A stretch of 64,000 bases of DNA, from contig NC_087385.1 in assembly GCF_963675165.1 (NCBI RefSeq), forward strand, positions 2,170,501-2,234,500, read 5' to 3'. A program made the position numbers and the translations under genes. The notes below the pieces were generated by a model, which had not been told where the DNA came from, searched no databases, and was given only the letters and a program-made list of their open reading frames with translations. Each line of letters begins with the position of its first letter. Positions within the stretch are counted from its first letter, which is position 1. Shown piece by piece: positions 13,709-54,170 of the stretch. The stretch is from Halichondria panicea. Its lineage: Eukaryota; Porifera; Demospongiae; Suberitida; Halichondriidae.

Positions 13709-16700
13709 TCATAATAATTGTGTCATTTCAGTTAAGAAAGTTCTTAGAAATGTTCGTCTCCTGACATGAGCTGCTCTCTTGAGAACCTCACTGCTGTTGT
13801 TGGTGTTCAACTCAGGCTGACCAGCCACTTGCATCTGAAGGGGGTTTATTAGCAGTGTACAAAACATTAATGAGTGGGAAGATGGCCCTCAGACTAACAG
13901 CTGAACAAATAATTTTGCTGAGGAAAATACGCTGGCTCAATATAATTATTTATACACCTGGTTCAATCACACAAATTAACTCACAGCAATTTTCTGCTTG
14001 TGTTTGTCGCCCTTTGACGTGAGAGTGTCTATGAGAGAAGTTAAGGCACATCTTCACAGATCACACAAACACTCAGTCACACAACAGTACCCATTCAATG
14101 GCATTAAACTAGTGCATAAAAGACAATCTATGTACAGTGTACAATTTGATGTTTAAGCTTCAAACTCTTGAAAGGGGAGGTCCGATCAGGCGGGGCCCTC
14201 ACCAGGAGCTGGGGGGGTATTTATTAGCAACAAACTTTTAAGGTGCCAATCTGTCATTACAACACACAAGTGAGAATCTGGATACCTCAGACACGTAACA
14301 CAAATCCAAGTTGTAATATTAACCGTGAGACAATGAGGATACAGATGAGATATTCGATGATGGTCATGTCCCAGAGGTGTGTGAACAGTCCCTCAGTCAT
14401 GGCTCCCACGTTGCTCCTCACGATACCGAATGCACCCTCGTAATCCACCGGCTCTAACAGCTGACACACTATCAGGGAGTGTGTGTGATAACGCAGCCTC
14501 GTGCAACAAGCCCTTAGTCGCTGATGGACGATGGGAGACCAGATGGCCTCAGGCACTTCCGTCGTGAAGTGGTTACTGGCCATGGAGCCGACAGACAAGA
14601 AGCCATATAGGGCTGCACCGTAGTCTTGCTTTGCTGTGGAGAGAAAGTGGGTGTAGAAAATATGTATAGTTTTTGGTGTATACAGGGGGAAAGCAAAACA
14701 ATGTAAGACTGCATGTGTACAATGTGCACCCACTCATGCAGGTAAGACTGCATTTCACTTTCTGTTATCGCCATTGTCTGCCTTACAATCAAAGGACAGT
14801 CTTATACAGTTAGCTAAATCTCACCGCAGTAGAGGTGGGCCTGCATGAGTAGCCAGGAGGTGTTGTTAGGCTGTAGCCGTAGTGACCGCCTGATGGTGGT
14901 GCTCAGGGAGCGGTATACTTGCTGTACATCAATACTGCCAGGACTGAAGGGGTCAAAGGTTAGTTATAATGGGGGAGCATTATGGATACTCTGCCCATAG
15001 TTATAGATCTTATGAGTTTAATTCTAATCTCAGATGCCAATGTCTTTGACTATTAATTATTGATTGATGAATTGGTGAATTAATAGCGAAGTTGCAAAGT
15101 TAACTATCAAAACGTACATCGGGTAACATTAACTCACAAATTGCAACTTCGTTATTAATTCACCAATTCATCAATCAATAATTATTATTGGATTAAGTAA
15201 CTCACGTTCCAATGGCAGTCGGCCAGTGACTCTTGTACTCACTGAGGACTTCAAACTCAGGTTTCTACGCAGGAGGCAAAATAACACATTGATAACTAAT
15301 CAGCCTCAACATTCAGGAATCAAGTACGTACAAACTACACATGTATGTAGACTTCAAATTCCATCACACTCAATCACACCCAAACACTCCAACTGTACTT
15401 ACCTCTAGGAGGTTCCAGACTCTTACCAGGGCTGCCAGTAGCAGAGACAGGCTAGTGGTATCCTGAGGGGGAGATTGAGCTACAGGTCAGTACAGTGAAG
15501 CATACATGTGTATGTACACAGCTTAGATACTAGACTTAGGGGACAAACTATACGAGCACTTGAAGTGACACTCGTAAGTTTGAGGAATTGCATTTCTGAA
15601 TGATCGAGGCAGCTGTTCTCGGTGTTACTGTTTGCCTTACCATAAGGTTCTCTACGAAGACGTCCAAGTTGGCCCTGAGTTTGGACTGTCTCTCACTCGT
15701 CTCTGCCTTACCCTCCCCCGCATGAAGAGGGGGGCAGAACACCGTCAGCACTGAATGTGTGTACGTGTATGATAAGGGCACAGGCTACATGTATGTGTGT
15801 GCGTGTAAAAGGGAGGGTATGTAAAGGCACAACCTGTGTATGCCACAGTACAACAAACCTTGTCACTGTACAAAAAGTGTACAATGTTGTATGCCAGTGT
15901 ACAAACAACGTGACTGTCAATGTACAACAACAAGGACATGTATAAGCTATTTAGTATGAAAATGCTGAGAACCACACATTCAAGTAAGCTAACTTGCTGG
16001 GTGCAACAATCGTATATTTCACACAGTCAAACATAATGTACATGTACAGGTGGGACCCTACCAGTGTATGTGTTATACCTGCGTCAAAGAGGTCTCTGAT
16101 GGGCTTCCTCAACTCCCGTCCCTCCTTCACACAGTGGACACAGTTGGCCAGGCGAGGGGCAATCTGATGGGGGGAGGTGCATAAGAGTAAATGGCAAAAA
16201 TAGGTATCTGTCATCCTATTGCATGTACATACAAGACTTTTCTACACGTAGACTGTATGTACCTACATTCAATGTGTAAACTGAAAACAGCATAACAACC
16301 ATTCTGCACATTGTACTCCACCCACTTACTACACCCGGCTCCAGCTGTGTCTCCCTGGAGAAGAGAAATGAGTAGTGTTGGGTGTTCAGTAGCAGAGCAT
16401 TGGTCAGGTGTGACGTCACACTGTCACATGACTCTATAGTATTGGAAAAATAAAGCTACACACAGACTCAGTGATTGTAACGAGCTATAAATGTACACAT
16501 CCACTGATGGTAGTAACTCACTGTGTCTTCCATCCAAACAGTAAGCCTTTGACTTAGCAATCAGTGGAGCCAGCTCTCCGGACTGTAACCTAGGACAACC
16601 AGAGCAGATAGTTAATCATCAAATTCTGAAACAATGCTAACAGGTTCATAGCTGGAAAATGCTTCACCTCTTCTCCACATTGTCTGGCGTGAGGATGGTG

Positions 16701-19700
16701 TGAGTGTCCAGTAGTTCCAGAGTGAGTATCTCCTCCCTCAGCCACTCCTCCAGACCTTGACGGACGGGGGAACTGAGGGGTGTGGTCTTGGGGGAGAGCA
16801 GCTTCAGAGCACATGAGAAAATCTCAATAGACGATGAGTAACTCTGCAAAGGAGACAAGGAGTTCTTACAGCTAGTTTCTGGGCTACATAAGATCCTCTG
16901 ATGTATAATTATTTTCTTTTGTTAACACACTCACGTCAAGATGTTTCTACTTTGGTATCAAGGTTTAGCCAAAAACATTAATATGTGGCTTGGGAAATCA
17001 AATTGGTCAAGATCACAAAAATATTTACTGTGTATAAAGCACCACTACACAGTGGTTATCAATGCAAATGTATAGAAAGCTAGGGGAAATGGTAAAGCTT
17101 GAAATAGCCTATACCCATAATATGGTCTTGGGTATCGTATATCTTCTAATTGATCAGTTTTTCTGGGCAATTTTTTAATAGCGGACACTCTGGTACTTTA
17201 ACAAAAATTTATCCGGACAATACCGAAGCAACGTAGCTTTATAAGTCCAGCAAGGAGTGCTGCAATCGATAGTTTTTTGAGGATTAGCTAGTTTTAGATA
17301 GCTAGTCCAACTATTCAGTCGCACACTGTTCTATTAAACTTAGCTAGCTCGCACGCAGCTGCATGCCTGTTCTAATTATTCTGAATTATACCCAGACAAC
17401 TAACTTCCGAAAAAATTATTTTTTGCTGTCCGATAAAAATAATAATTAGAACATTATACAGTATATCCAGTCATACCTTAGCTTGTTTGAGAGTCTTCCC
17501 CCTGTGAACAAGGATGTTGTACTTTGTGAAGGTGAGAGGGTCGGTCATAGACTCCACGGGAACAAAGCCTTGAGACACGCCCACCCACTGTCAGGCAAAC
17601 AAACGCATGGTACAACTTACTGTTTAGGATCACATGATACAAGTATTAATGCAGACAAGATGCAACCCATCGTATAACGGGAAAATTTGGTGAGACATTT
17701 AAACGTTTAATTTGGTGTCTCGGGCGTGGCTACTCTGGTCAATGATGTTAGATCCACAGCTTAGATTTAATATTGGCAGTTAAATTTGGCAATCTTTGCC
17801 AAATCTTCCCGTTATACGGTATGTACATATGTAGGTGAGAGTACACATGCATTGTACCCGTTCTTATTTACAAAAACCGTCTTTGCAAACAACAATGTAA
17901 TGGCTAAGGACAAGGGAATGCACAAACTGTAATTGAATTCATCTGTGGTACTTAAGAGTCTCATGATATTCACTAAGTGCAAGGAAAGGCATGATTGGGC
18001 AGGATTTTAGACATATGACCTAAATTATTACCGGTCTAGGCTAAAGTCACCTTTATAGCGATGGCCCTATGTTGGTTGGTGGGTGTGGCTTTAAACAGTC
18101 TCTCCACAGCTGTCAGAGTGGCCTCGGCTGTGACCTCACGACACATTGCAGAGTCCAGGGTCTGTAGGGGTGAGCTGCTGTCCATGGCAACCAGCTCCGG
18201 CACAACTGTCTCTGACACAAGGCCACGATAGACAGACTGCTCCTGATAGGCAGAAAGAAATTTACTCAACAAACGTAAAGACAAAGTTATTCATAAGTTA
18301 AAGTAGGTCTTATAATAATCATGTGATGTTTAAAAAAAGCACAACAGGCAAAGTAGAAAGCAAGAAGAAAGTTTGAAGAGATGGGAAATAATAATACAGT
18401 TCCAGCTAATAATAAGCCAACTACAGTGTTTACATATCCAGACTTCTACAACCAAGTCAATGAGGTAACTACAGCGCTTATGCTTCCAGCTATTATTGAC
18501 CACCACAAGGTTGAGCTGTTGCCAGCTATTATTCACCACCAGGACCAAGATAATGAGCTAACAAACAAAAAGGAGTTGTATGCAGTTGCAAAGGCCAAAG
18601 CCCAACGAAACCAATCAAAATCGATGCTCTTTCGGGACTACAACATTCGATCAGAGTTGAAGCTTATTAAACTGTTGATACATGTAAATAAACTGTTGAG
18701 AGAGTGCACCATATATGCAATCGACCATATGCTTATATTTCGACATACAAGTTCAAAAAGTGTTCCAGTGCTTTCAATGTCTATGAAAGAGTTGGTTTCT
18801 CTCCTCAGGAGCATTCGCTCAGGCTGGGGTCCTCCACTGGAACTGGTCACAAGGATGCTCAATTCCAAGTTCTGGGTGATGGAGGCAGACGTCTGGGCTG
18901 ACCTGCTCATCGTCTGCTGCTGGGCCAACCCCACCACTATCTACTGCGAGAAATGCAGCAAAGATGTGGAATCAACTACCACCTCTTGCAACCATGTTGT
19001 GTGTCCTGTTTGCGTTGTGGGGAAGGGAATAGGTCCAATAAGCTGTCCTGAATGTGGGCAAAGATTGACTGCCTTGCTTTTCACGTCAGCATTGACATCC
19101 ACACCGGAAAAAATAACAAGTAGGTTCTTAAGGCATTTAAGTGTTGTTTTGTGCACTAGTGGTTATACAAACTTTTTCCTATCAACACAGGGAAGCGTAG
19201 TTTTTGCGAGTCAACAACAGCTGCCACTAAGAAAGCATGTACAAGCAAAGCATGTACAAGCTCAGGTTAGTTCAATTCTACAGCCTGACAACATAACTTT
19301 ACATACGTATTACTAATTAATTGTAGGCAAGGCAAAAAGTACAAGACCAAGACACAAAGCTGCCACACAAATATCTCAAACCAGCCCCTTCACAACATCA
19401 AACCTTCAAGGGCTATTTGAGACACTCTTCCCTGCTCGTACTAGCTGGTTCAACCTGGGTCTTGCTCTAGACATGTCGTGTGAAACACTCAAGGACATAC
19501 GCATCAAACAGAGGGAAGACTCGGGTGACTGCCTCAGAGAGATGCTAATTATCAGGCTAGAGGAAGAGTTAAGCAAAGAGGAGATTGTGGCAGCTCTCGA
19601 TACAGCTACAGTTGGACGATATTCTCTAGCACGGGAGGCGGAGAAAACTCTTTGAACTGAACTACTTTAATACTGCACATAATTATAAGCCACATGCACG

Positions 19701-22700
19701 CACATGATACCACATTGCACTAATGTTACATGTACATCTACAAAATTCAAGTTGGTCGTCTTGCTATCAGTGTATAAGAACTTTTTAGTGGAGACAAACT
19801 GGGACATTAATTAATCACCTTGTGTGATGCGATTTCTTTCACAGCAGACTTGAGTAGTCTCTCCCAGTCACGCCCACCTTTAGCTCCGCCCACACACAGG
19901 GTACGAACAAACGACTTGAGTCTGCATCGCTCCTCTGGACTCAAGTTCGTAGACAACAGCTGCTCACAAAGCTGCAGAGATGGAAGGGACAGATACTAGA
20001 GCACTCGAAATCTACGACAAGCATAATAGTGTCACTGTAACCACGTATATGTAATTTCAGTAAATGTAAAGTACTAGCTAGGCTGTACTTGTAGTTTTTG
20101 TACACATAGTCTTATTAGCTACGCAAATAGCATTTGAAAAATCACATTGCTAGACTCGTGCATTCAATGCTCGGAACCAAAACAAAATTTTCTTCTCTGT
20201 AACCTTTAAAAATAACATTAAATCTATACTCTCCATGTAATCACATTCTAATCACAAAACACACACCACACCACCACTCACACTGAGCACACAGTCCAGG
20301 AAACACACACCACACCACCACTCACACTGAGCACACAGTCCAGGAAACACACACCACACCACCACTCACACTGAGCATACAGTCCAGGAAACACACACCA
20401 CACCACCACTCACACTGAGCACACAGTCCAGGAAACACACACCACACCACCACTCACACTGAGCATACAGTCCAGGAAACACACACCACACCACCACTCA
20501 CACTGAGCACACAGTCCAGGAAACACACACCACACCACCACTCACACTGAGCACACAGTCCAGGAAACACACACCACACCACCACTCACACTGAGCACAC
20601 AGTCCAGGAAACACACACCACACCACCACTCACACTGAGCACACAGTCCAGGAAACACACACCACACCACCACTCACACTGAGCACACAGTCCAGGAAAC
20701 ACACACCACACCACCACTCACACTGAGCACACAGTCCAAGAAGGCCTCTCTCTCTCTACACAGCTGCCAGAACCTCGGCAGTGGGGACTTGTTCTCCATC
20801 ACCTCCCTCAGGCCATTGTATGCAGTCAGACCCTCCTCCATGGTGACCACATCCACCCCCTCGCGCCTCATCTTCTTACTGGGTGGCTCCTCTATTGATC
20901 GCTCTGTGGCAGCTGTCAACGCTCGCCTCTCAAGGCAGAGTCTGTAACCAAGGGGAAGCCCCTTACTCTGGAAGTCCCTAGTCAGGATATCACGAGTGTC
21001 CTGAAGAATACAAAATAAGTACATGCACACATAAAAATGTTGGCAACATAAATCATTCCTCACGAGCTCTAGCTTACAAAATACTACCTAAGACTATACA
21101 TGTACAATGAAAGCAACATGCATAATTATACACGTATGGTGGAATACTGTACACGTGAGTTTCGTACCGACCAACCGGACATTTTTACTGCCTCCAGTTC
21201 TGCTGCTAAATTCTCCACTATCACCCCCTCGCTAGCCTCGCAGGCATTGAGGAAGCCCCTGACCTCGTCCCTGTTAACAAACAGTGCACTGTGGGTGGTG
21301 GCTATGGAAGAGAGAAGATTGTGACATTGAACAAACAGCTCGCTAGCTCTGGGGAGGTCTCCCTGAGTGAAGTAGTAGCAACCAAGAGTGTAGCTGATCT
21401 GGAGGGTGGCAAGAGACATTGATCAATTATGTACGAGACTTTGAAGCTTATGTTTGAAATCCACTATTATTCTACACACACTCTTGTTCTAAGGTTTAAT
21501 CTAGGCATTTATTACAGAACCTAGCAAGCTACGGAGAACACGGACACCCTATGTATATTTATAAAAAGAAGAACTCACCTCACAGAGCACATGATCCTGT
21601 GGTCTGTTCCACTCATTCTGCCCCCCAGAGTCTGGGGGTTCCAAGTGCTCGACAGGCCCCTTGACAGTAGACAGGGACACACCCACTTTAGGAAGCTTGA
21701 AGAGATCGGGAACAGTGGCTGAGGAGAGGATCCCATTGAGTAAATCTAGTGCTTTGGAAACCAGTGGCTTCGTCTGTGAGTGTGTATGCGTGTGTGGAAG
21801 ACAAGTACTGGTCACATACACTCAAACGTTGTTGTTTTGATCCAACAGCTTAATTGCAGAGCCTGAGGTATTGTGTCAGTGCCTTTCACTACACACCACC
21901 GGGCGCCGGTATAATACACTGTAGCACGTACATTAAAACTCACAGTTGAATCGATTTGCTCCAGACTGTTGCTATTAGCCTCAGGGGCTGGTGTGCTAGA
22001 TCGAGAGGGTAGATTGGGCAGGTGCTTGTGACGGTAAATGAACCTGAGCACCCATTGGCTGTGGATCACATGAGCCATGAGTGTGTCCGACTCCTTGCTG
22101 AAAAGTGGGCCCTCCTGGACGTATGCATTACAGAGCTGCGACACTAGGCTGCACTGAATCAAGGTAGGGAGTCTGGGGCGGGGACAAGAGTGACAGTGTT
22201 AGAAACAAAGCACATGACAACATCTGAGGACAAGCAAACGTGCAGAGCAGTATGAGCCTCTTCACTTTGCAAAAGAGATTTTAATGGACCCAGAATGTGT
22301 AGGTCTTCAAAGATCTTCGTAGTTAAAAAAGGTATACTCTACGAAATGTTAAATAGCACAATTTATAGCATGTCATAAAGGATCATTACGTTAAATTCAC
22401 GCTCTTCCAGTCTCAATACACAGCATATTGTTTCATCGTGCACCTTTTCTCGATGACCTCCAGGTTCCAGTGAAGTAGGGAGCCGAGAAGCAGTGCACAG
22501 TTGACCAGAGCCACTCTCCGCTCTTCTTGTACAGCGCCGTCACCGGTTGCTCGTGGCAACTGGCCGGGGAGGCACTCGGCTTTCTCTAGGAATGTCCCTA
22601 TCAACTGGTAGGCTGTGGGCTCAGCTACAAGGAGCAAGCAAAGCAATGTCTGCTATGTGCATACATTGCAGAATTGTGTTACAACATTCAATTTTTCAGT

Positions 22701-23094: not shown

Positions 23095-25533
23095 ATGGCT
23101 ACACTAGTTGATAGATACTCCTCCATGTCCGTCAAGTCTTGCCTGTCCCGTGGAGACGATAGGCAAGGCATTGGGCTGCTCTCTGATCCCATGGTGGACT
23201 TGCCATTACTGGACAGGGGACAGAGGTCCTTTGCTGTTCCTCCCGGGATTGAAGTATGTCTTCAGCTGCCCTGCTTTGTGTTTGGTTTGTACGCACTGTT
23301 TTAATAAATTGTCTTGTAGAGATGAACAAGTAGATCTAGGTGACAGCCTTTTAGCCTCGTCCCACTCATGCCTAGCGCCTACGTACATGTACTTGACTTA
23401 CCCAGGTGCTAGGCAGTAGTTGCTGAGATAGAGTTGGTTGGAGAGTGTGGGCATGTAATGTGTCAAATGTGTGGTGTGTTTGATAGAGAGGCTAATTCCC
23501 ATTTACAACTAAACAATCACATAACGTACACACTCCACACACATACGTCACTTGTCCACACACACACACACACACACACAGCCAGTGGAGTTCCTTCGGC
23601 CGTTCTCCACAGGGGGTGACTCCAATGTCAAGATCCAGTTTGCTCACGGGACCACCACTCTGGCTTTCAAGTTCCAACACGGAGTCATTGTTGCCGTGGA
23701 CTCCAGAGCCACTGCTGGCTCCTGGATAGGTAAACCAGTGTAATGGCTAAATTACTAGATGATAAGATGATAAGATCTACACAAGTAGTTGCGTGTTAAT
23801 CGAGTACAACAAGTAATATTGTAATGTTCTATGTACTGTGCATTTTATAGCTGGTGTGAGCGTTTCTTTGACATTTCTGTATAATAATAGAGTTTTAAGT
23901 TAGAATTTTAATTTCTTTTGCATACCTGTTAGTGTACCTACATGTATGTACACGCCTAAACCTTCATCTCGCCCACCCCCAGCGTCTCAGACTGTGAAGA
24001 AAGTGATAGAGATCAACCCTTACCTGCTGGGCACCATGGCTGGAGGAGCCGCTGACTGCTCCTACTGGGAGAGGCAGCTTGCCTTTGAGTGCAGGTGAGA
24101 GGTCGTTATCATATCATTGTGTTCTGTTCCGTTGGTGGTGAGTGTAATCACCGTAGAAACTAGATTATTAGCGCTTACTCGACTATAAGCGTATCCTGCA
24201 ACATTGCTTTCTTGTGACTACCATTAAGGGTATAACTCTTACTATAAACTTCTGCTATTGCTACATTGTTGTTTCTTAGATCCCTGCAAACTAATTTGAA
24301 CCTACCGTACCATTCTATGGAAAAATAAATTTGGGGTGCATGTTCAGGGCTGCATTGAGGGGAGGGGGGGTAATTCTCCCCCCCCCTCCCCCTAGGATAT
24401 GGCAGATTCATTTGTACTGATAATTCTATGTGAGATAAAATTGCACCAGAATCGATCTAAGGCCCTCAAATATCCAATTTTTCTGAGGGAGCATGCCCCC
24501 AAGTTTGGCTTGGACTAAAGCATACGCTGTGAGGTACTTCACCCCCTTGACCCAAAATCCTGGATGCAGCCCTGATGTTGCATGTTTTTTAAAAGTATTG
24601 TCAGAGTGCTCTGATGATCATGTACCTGTTCTTGCTCTGCCCAGGCTGTACGAGCTTAGGAACAAGGAGAGGATCTCAGTGGCAGCTGCCTCTAAAGTCC
24701 TTGCCAACATGATCTACTACTACAAGGGAATGGGCCTCTCCATGGGAACAATGATTTGTGGATGGGACAAGAAGGTATAATAATATCAAAGATGCCTGTT
24801 GATTTCGCTTTTCACGATTAGGTAGCCCTACATACGTACATGGAGGTACATGTAGGTACAATAAACTAAAAGACCACATCGTTTTTTTCACCCAATTTTT
24901 CGCTCTGTTGCAAATGTGAATGCCTGCATGGTTTTGTCAACTCTGCTGTCATTAAAGTCACCTTTCTTGCCCCCAGGGCCCCGGCCTGTACTATGTGGAC
25001 ACTGATGGTAGTCGCCTGACTCACCACATTTTCAGTGTGGGCTCTGGTTCCACCTACGCCTACGGTGTGATGGACAGTGGCTACCACTGGGACATGGAGA
25101 TAGAGGAGGCCAGAGAACTGGGAAAGAGAGCTATCTATCACGCCACTCATAGGGACGCTTACAGTGGAGGAGTTGTCAACTGTAAGTAATTAGTTTGGTC
25201 AACATTTCAGCTGGTTCTTAACACAAAATGTGATGGAGTTCCTCCCCTAGTTGTACTATTTTCTAGAATGAACAATTTGTCCTGTCATAATTATACATGT
25301 ATCATGTATAATATCGATACTATAACTCAATGTCAATTTGCATTATTTACCGTAGTTGTGGTTTCTGTTGTGTCAGTGTATTATTGGTTGCTACACGAGT
25401 TTATTGCCAACGCTCTCCTCCTACAGTGTACCACATGTGTGCGACTGGCTGGGAGAAGGTGTCATCCACCAATGTGGCTGAGTTGCACTATCAATACAAA
25501 GACGAGAAGATGGCACAGACAGCCGCTGCATAG
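23095..25533 (+). CDS. PSMB5: Proteasome subunit beta type-5
   Basis: Chymotrypsin-like catalytic beta subunit of the 20S proteasome, cytosolic and nuclear. Six exons, 23095-23253, 23582-23729, 23983-24094, 24645-24774, 24977-25181 and 25427-25533, encode 286 residues. The precursor is cleaved after FAHG so that Thr77 becomes the mature catalytic Thr1 ([11 protein letters not shown]). In mature numbering Asp17, Lys33 and Met45 (LLGTMAGG) are all present; Met45 shapes the S1 pocket typical of beta-5. [15 protein letters not shown] and [14 protein letters not shown] are nearly identical to human. The first intron's acceptor is preceded by a pure CA repeat rather than a normal pyrimidine tract. 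It shares a divergent promoter with INTS8. Confidence 0.98.
23556..23581. repeat. CA microsatellite abutting PSMB5 intron 1 acceptor
   Basis: A run of CA dinucleotides (about 12) ends directly at the AG of the splice acceptor, taking the place of the polypyrimidine tract. Confidence 0.85.
24335..24580. repeat. Inverted-repeat element in PSMB5 intron 3
   Basis: Ends share GCATGTTCAGGGCTGCAT and, in opposite orientation, ATGCAGCCCTGATGTTGCATG. The inside holds adjoining G and C runs (24360-24392). It looks like a MITE-type insertion; non-coding. Confidence 0.6.

Positions 25534-49237: not shown

Positions 49238-54170
<4,933 letters not shown>

Follow-up and report, generated by a model that had tools for sequence, protein, structure and literature searches.

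The INTS8 gene of the sponge Halichondria panicea contains a 44-bp minisatellite whose unit straddles an exon-intron boundary, so that the authentic 5' splice site of a conserved exon is followed by ten further copies of itself. The array lies in a window of 64,000 nucleotides, the whole stretch of DNA analysed here, and resembles the 'mirages' of amphioxus, for which the founding paper reportedly dates from 2002. Taken as a whole, the evidence very probably describes a splice-junction minisatellite of the mirage type in INTS8, which is spliced out from its first donor with a minor leak to the later ones. The minisatellite and its position in a conserved gene are real, its copy uniformity indicates a recent origin, and a tandem of eleven 44-bp copies this close to perfect cannot plausibly be ascribed to chance.

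Using TRF on the window, the array was placed at 20257-20742 (period 44, 11.0 copies, 98% matches, 0% indels, score 951), with a copy number that comes from one assembly. A first-pass annotation of this DNA had already reported an array at 20246-20734; its presence is borne out, while both bounds were about ten bases off. TRF and dissection of the unit agree with its proposal that each copy joins the INTS8 exon end to a GTGAGT donor: the unit consists of CCTGGACTGTGTGCTCAGT from the exon end and GTGAGTGGTGGTGTGGTGTGTGTTT from the intron start. The first array copy is the INTS8 exon end itself, and this copy reads CTTGGACTG where the copies in the intron read CCTGGACTG. On the minus strand GTGAGT occurs eleven times, with the +1 G running from 20721 to 20281 at a constant spacing of 44 bases; the ten extra copies beyond the authentic donor, and a unit length that is not a multiple of three, had thus been correctly recognised. 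Positions -8 to +25 are identical in all eleven donor copies and GTGAGT is kept in every one of them, whereas position -9 is variable (G to A in two of the eleven) and the outermost copies of the array differ at their outer edges. Three of the features by which mirages are recognised are present, namely a boundary-spanning unit, a tandem of similar copies of minisatellite length and the retention of splice signals. A two-unit query against the 131-Mb genome, in a search that passes over simple repeats and highly frequent words, found no dispersed repeat; it recovered the INTS8 array itself plus a single 77% match, located in a CA-rich part of contig C2. The coordinates of the array, of its gene context and of the related arrays found elsewhere in the genome are given in Table 1.

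Table 1. Features of the INTS8 array (positions in the window) and of related arrays elsewhere in the genome (contig coordinates); slashes within sequences in the text mark splice junctions.
Feature	Location	Strand	Unit and copies	Basis and remarks
44-bp minisatellite	20257..20742	-	per unit about 19-21 exon-end and 23-25 intron-start bases	TRF and unit dissection
Ten extra donor copies	20276..20677	-		unit dissection
Extra donor +1 G, first five	20677, 20633, 20589, 20545, 20501	-		
Extra donor +1 G, last five	20457, 20413, 20369, 20325, 20281	-		
In-frame TGA on reading the exon into the array	20674..20676	-		unit dissection; open frame ends at 20674
INTS8 exon, sixth in the model, ending ...FLDCVLS at the first copy	20722..21000	-		exon model, INTS8 match
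Exon-proximal (authentic) donor GTGAGT	20716..20721	-		phase-0 join to next exon; gap-free against human INTS8
INTS8 intron with the array, 750 bases (310 from last donor copy)	19972..20721	-		exon model
Next INTS8 exon, LCEQLLSTNLSPEERCRLKSFVRTLCVGG...	19819..19971	-		exon model, INTS8 match; frame closes
167-base intron upstream of the array exon	21001..21167	-		exon model
L043, Rab GDI	G000:C13:4187545-4190668		58 bp x 12.4	Pfam 2e-28; PDB 2.7e-28 to exon end
L039, HSD17B10	C12:6524285-6527412		56 bp x 10.8	protein homology
L056, TGF-beta-receptor-family kinase	C11, around 492341		48 bp x 14.7	homology of longer joined model
L058, ADAR-like dsRBD protein	C11, around 869538		34 bp x 4.4	protein homology
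L054, without clear relatives	C6, around 832845			open frame with acceptor and donor only
L069, without clear relatives	C16, around 5636274			open frame with acceptor and donor only
L052, cystatin-like exon (acceptor side)	G000:C15:165493-168620		30 bp x 9.2	Pfam 3.1e-10
L037 (acceptor side)	C4:3946354-3949482		29 bp x 5.5	no Pfam match

The identity of the gene was established from ten exons, whose phase-matched joining yields an open frame of 626 residues in a partial model that leaves out the C-terminal exons. Its product matches human INTS8 chain 7cun_H (E 9.4e-11, residues 21-444) with runner-up solved structures only at E 0.4, INTS8 being the sole family matched; a Pfam search of the assembled exons gave no match, and two of the exons alone gave none in the first homology search, where the longer joined model was needed. 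The junction FLDCVLS/LCEQLLS, formed from the exon-proximal donor, aligns gap-free to human INTS8. Two INTS8 exons searched against the genome were found in a single place, and this search detected no second INTS8 copy without the array. Considering that the junction is gap-free and that the gene is found once, the conserved protein comes from the exon-proximal donor. The 1576-base gap that follows 19819 may hold an additional INTS8 exon absent from the model.

Several other features were observed in and around the gene. Two abutting plus-strand open frames lie at 18357-19655 of the window, inside the 1576-base INTS8 intron; the first has a sub-threshold Pfam match to a RING-type zinc finger, and together they may form a nested gene in antisense orientation to INTS8. 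An inverted repeat in an INTS8 intron (15051-15187), with A/T-rich 47-base arms that are 96% complementary and 43 bases apart, is perhaps the relic of a small transposon. Beside INTS8, at about 23500-25200, the plus strand holds four open pieces with Pfam matches to the proteasome subunit family PF00227 (best 5.6e-18), presumably of beta-type-5.

The first-pass annotation had further expected that every third donor copy would restore the INTS8 frame. This expectation fails, since the in-frame TGA terminates the products of donors 2-10, as well as that of intron retention, after 15 further codons, and donor 1 (+44) shifts the frame into a stop after 24 further codons, within the next exon. No single distal INTS8 donor yields a full-length protein.

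Regarding the choice among the donors, the copies are equal by local sequence and position is what differs between them. The U1 pairing energy is the same at all eleven sites and the predicted accessibility is low at every one (0.002-0.011); this range does not single out the first copy and gives no support to RNA structure as the marker of the authentic donor. With copies identical from -8 to +25, of equal U1 duplex energy and of similar predicted accessibility, the array is the natural test of donor choice that it had been taken for. The U1 energy of the array-exon donor (-9.6) is the second strongest among the ten INTS8 exon ends scored (-5.3 to -10.8), and its exon side, AGT, produces a bulge in the predicted U1 duplex.

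A rule for such a choice is available from vertebrate work. As reported in the available text of that study, minigenes with identical donors 52 bases apart, 365-base introns and exon definition used the upstream donor (PMC9225289). Its human database, in the same text, shows the upstream of two equal donors favoured under exon definition, more so in a hybrid class SL, which is read here as short upstream and long downstream intron, and the downstream site favoured under intron definition. The INTS8 array exon is flanked by 167 bases upstream and by 750 bases downstream, or 310 counted from the last copy. Given these flanks and the donor rule, the first donor is predicted, if vertebrate thresholds hold in this animal. 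As a counterpoint, each of the first five introns of INTS8 is short, at 155-271 bases, and if introns rather than exons are recognised the last copy would be favoured. We consider removal of the intron from the first donor to be most likely, with a leak to the later copies that would be harmful but is expected to be minor, slight and directed to unstable mRNAs.

An improbable alternative is that the array works as a bank of donors, several of which would be used appreciably, so that mRNAs with premature stops would set the INTS8 level through nonsense-mediated decay and array length would act as a dial. The local equivalence of the eleven donors and the premature stop in every distal-donor product speak for such control, and the human ABCA7 repeat, in the available account, has measurable retention of one unit and splicing that depends on VNTR length, the length effect being skipping of the next exon. 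However, the same account puts unit retention at about 2% and independent of length, the amphioxus arrays are described in the available text as not disturbing splicing, and a like structure in the unrelated GDI, HSD17B10, receptor kinase and ADAR-like genes opposes a control specific to INTS8.

These other genes were found by scanning the whole genome for three AGGTRAGT motifs within a set spacing. The scans returned 16 matches at 51-81 bases and 18 at 20-50 bases, which resolve into 12 distinct arrays. INTS8 is absent from the 12 because its site reads AGT/GTGAGT, and the scan therefore misses cases. Half of the arrays (six of 12) begin at a coding exon's donor, and in four of these the exon has protein homology (Table 1). 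In the remaining two, L054 and L069, the Pfam matches fall below the curated cut-offs. The receptor-kinase exon gave no match when it was searched alone against PDB, and the longer joined model was needed. A further two of the 12 adjoin an exon acceptor on the other strand and were excluded from the donor arrays; the exon of one has a Pfam match, and that of L037, which has no Pfam family, we take to be AAA-ATPase-like. At the other four (L038, L048, L055 and L061) no coding exon was seen at the donor, and these were likewise excluded.

In two of these cases the first donor again fits the conserved protein: joined from this donor to the next exon, Rab GDI matches 1d5t_A at 6.4e-40 and HSD17B10 matches 1e3w_A at 5.4e-64, both gap-free at the junction. 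In all seven donor arrays including INTS8, reading on through the exon end runs into a stop codon 1-156 bases beyond the donor, counted for L054 and L069 in the frame taken as coding. The arrays also differ in ways that bear on donor choice. Eight of the nine later GTRAGT sites of Rab GDI equal the original; including the first it has 10 donor sites for 12.4 units, which indicates that the donor was lost from some units. The receptor kinase has a changed exon side in five of its 14 later sites. In HSD17B10 the authentic donor is CAG/GTGTGT, with a U1 duplex of -9.1, and the 12 later copies are CAG/GTGAGT, with -13.6. Since the stronger donor was dominant in 86% of the competitions reported in the available text of PMC9225289, this figure would speak against use of the first donor in HSD17B10. 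Measured from the last and from the first copy, the introns are 204 and 775 bases in GDI, 139 and 892 in HSD17B10, and 182 and 874 in the kinase; the lengths differ from that of INTS8 (310), and two proximity rules predict these cases differently.

The intron starts of these arrays have a common composition. From +7 to +30 at the first copy, G makes up 50-75% of the bases in the seven arrays versus 4-25% in nine ordinary donors, all nine taken from one gene, INTS8. Our inference is that the array expansions were seeded at intron starts rich in G/GT. A tentative and rather doubtful generalisation is that splice-junction minisatellites form a recurrent genome-wide class, seeded at such intron starts and tolerated through positional commitment to the exon-nearest donor, even against stronger later copies.

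Control scans with the reversed motif gave more matches than the motif itself, 31 versus 16 at 51-81 bases and 39 versus 18 at 20-50 bases. The 31 control matches fall in four places (five if two stretches of C17 about 8 kb apart are split) versus six motif arrays, and one of these places is the same array as L038. These counts do not demonstrate that the donor motif is more frequent in arrays than its reverse; the finding that stands is that a coding-exon donor marks the exact start of half of the donor-motif arrays, a fraction counted for the donor motif only. Two arrays from the control scan, at G000:C9:6906245-6906651 and C17:4724884-4733870, have spacings of about 57 and 78 bp, multiples of three, and are possibly coding repeats. 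A broader pattern, three GTRAGT 26-56 bases apart, was discarded as uninformative (4003 matches versus 5399 in its control), its listed matches coming, as judged by eye, all from a 40-bp satellite. This satellite (GTGAGTGGGTTCAATTCACTAGCAATAGTTTT...) contains GTGAGT and, among the matches listed, forms many arrays near one end of C1 (G000:C1 38540-153755).

An alternative for INTS8 and the other donor arrays is stepwise (recursive) splicing, in which the AG before each donor copy would serve as an acceptor and the intron would leave in pieces. We regard this as very improbable, even though the first site of the six other donor arrays is AG/GT, where splicing to the AG of a copy would rebuild the exon end, and human UBC, in the available text of PMC10809524, uses AGGT sites within a tandem array as donors and as acceptors. 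For INTS8 the model takes a 45-base piece (from CAG/ to AGT/) as an in-frame exon adding CEWWCGVCFLDCVLS. This piece is indeed open in frame, and its upstream pyrimidine fraction of 0.65 falls inside the 0.53-0.82 of nine true INTS8 acceptors. Nevertheless, the INTS8 site is CAG/T/GTGAGT, so one base would be added and the frame shifted, and the intron between two adjacent copies would be as small as about 43 bases.

It is scarcely credible that the array is an artefact of assembly and that the true allele carries one or two units. Tandem arrays are prone to miscounting and a single assembly is at hand, but two units carry an internal variant, similar arrays exist at other loci, and the contig is 7 Mb long, with a TG run of 997 bases in the same window (51421-52417, nearly pure, 99% matches in TRF).

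For the favoured reading, a mirage-type array removed from its first donor, we propose the following course. A 44-bp block covering the 3' end of the INTS8 exon together with the first, G/T-rich bases of the intron would have been duplicated in tandem and expanded to 11 copies by slippage or unequal exchange, probably seeded by the G-rich intron start. The array would sit inside what is normally removed as one 750-base intron. With a short upstream and a long downstream intron the exon would be recognised as a unit, and the upstream of the equal donors would mostly be chosen. Leakage to distal donors would produce premature-stop mRNAs that are degraded, and the array may cost little while its length drifts.

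Studies of how a donor is chosen among locally identical sites usually rely on constructed minigenes. In the present case a conserved gene, located at a single place in its genome, presents eleven identical donors 44 bases apart, where a wrong single choice means 44n bases and a premature stop. The sister arrays act as variants of this arrangement, with mostly equal copies in GDI, partly decayed copies in the kinase and copies stronger than the authentic donor in HSD17B10. If the generalisation of positional commitment to the exon-nearest donor holds, the arrays provide a natural set of cases in which the effects of donor position and donor strength can be told apart, and array length would slightly tune output by way of premature stops. 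The arrays also suggest that such expansions originate where an intron begins with G-rich sequence.

Our literature search by titles and abstract openings, of partial coverage, found no sponge or similar case. The type of array is already known from the amphioxus mirages and human ABCA7, and what is added here is its recurrence at several genes in one genome. Two kinds of known repeat share single features with the INTS8 array, as far as the available texts describe them. Young human duplicates likewise carry variable tandem repeats at exon-intron boundaries, but these are linked to new introns, whereas in INTS8 an existing intron was lengthened (PMC2812944). In intron gain by AGGT tandem duplication (PMC4974935) a splice signal is also copied inside a gene, but the INTS8 array shows no new intron.

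The dual-specific sites of human UBC and VCX3A are closer, being tandem units each with a splice site (PMC10809524). In the available text their AGGT is both donor and acceptor, and the UBC units are coding; INTS8, in contrast, has AGTGT, which is not seamless, its units reading CAGTGTGAGT with one base separating AG and GT. The VNTR of human ABCA7 intron 18 has donor-bearing 25-bp units, and the available text gives one-unit retention of 2 +/- 1%, out of frame (PMC5954066). Like the INTS8 array it has a donor in each unit, and one unit kept leads to a frameshift and a premature stop. Unlike the INTS8 array, it is there described as a 25-bp repeat of 12 to several hundred copies, polymorphic, disease-linked and with length-dependent skipping of the next exon.

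The amphioxus mirages, described for Adh3, the globins BflGb6 and BflGb9, PGBD5 and troponin C, are tandem copies over an exon-intron boundary, for which, in the available text, RT-PCR suggested normal splicing and the length was called unstable (PMC3087553, PMC3902484). In agreement with that description, the INTS8 array consists of minisatellite-like, boundary-spanning copies with splice signals; it differs in its ten extra donors that are identical around the site and in being one of seven donor exons with arrays in one genome. These observations suggest that arrays of the amphioxus type also occur outside that lineage.
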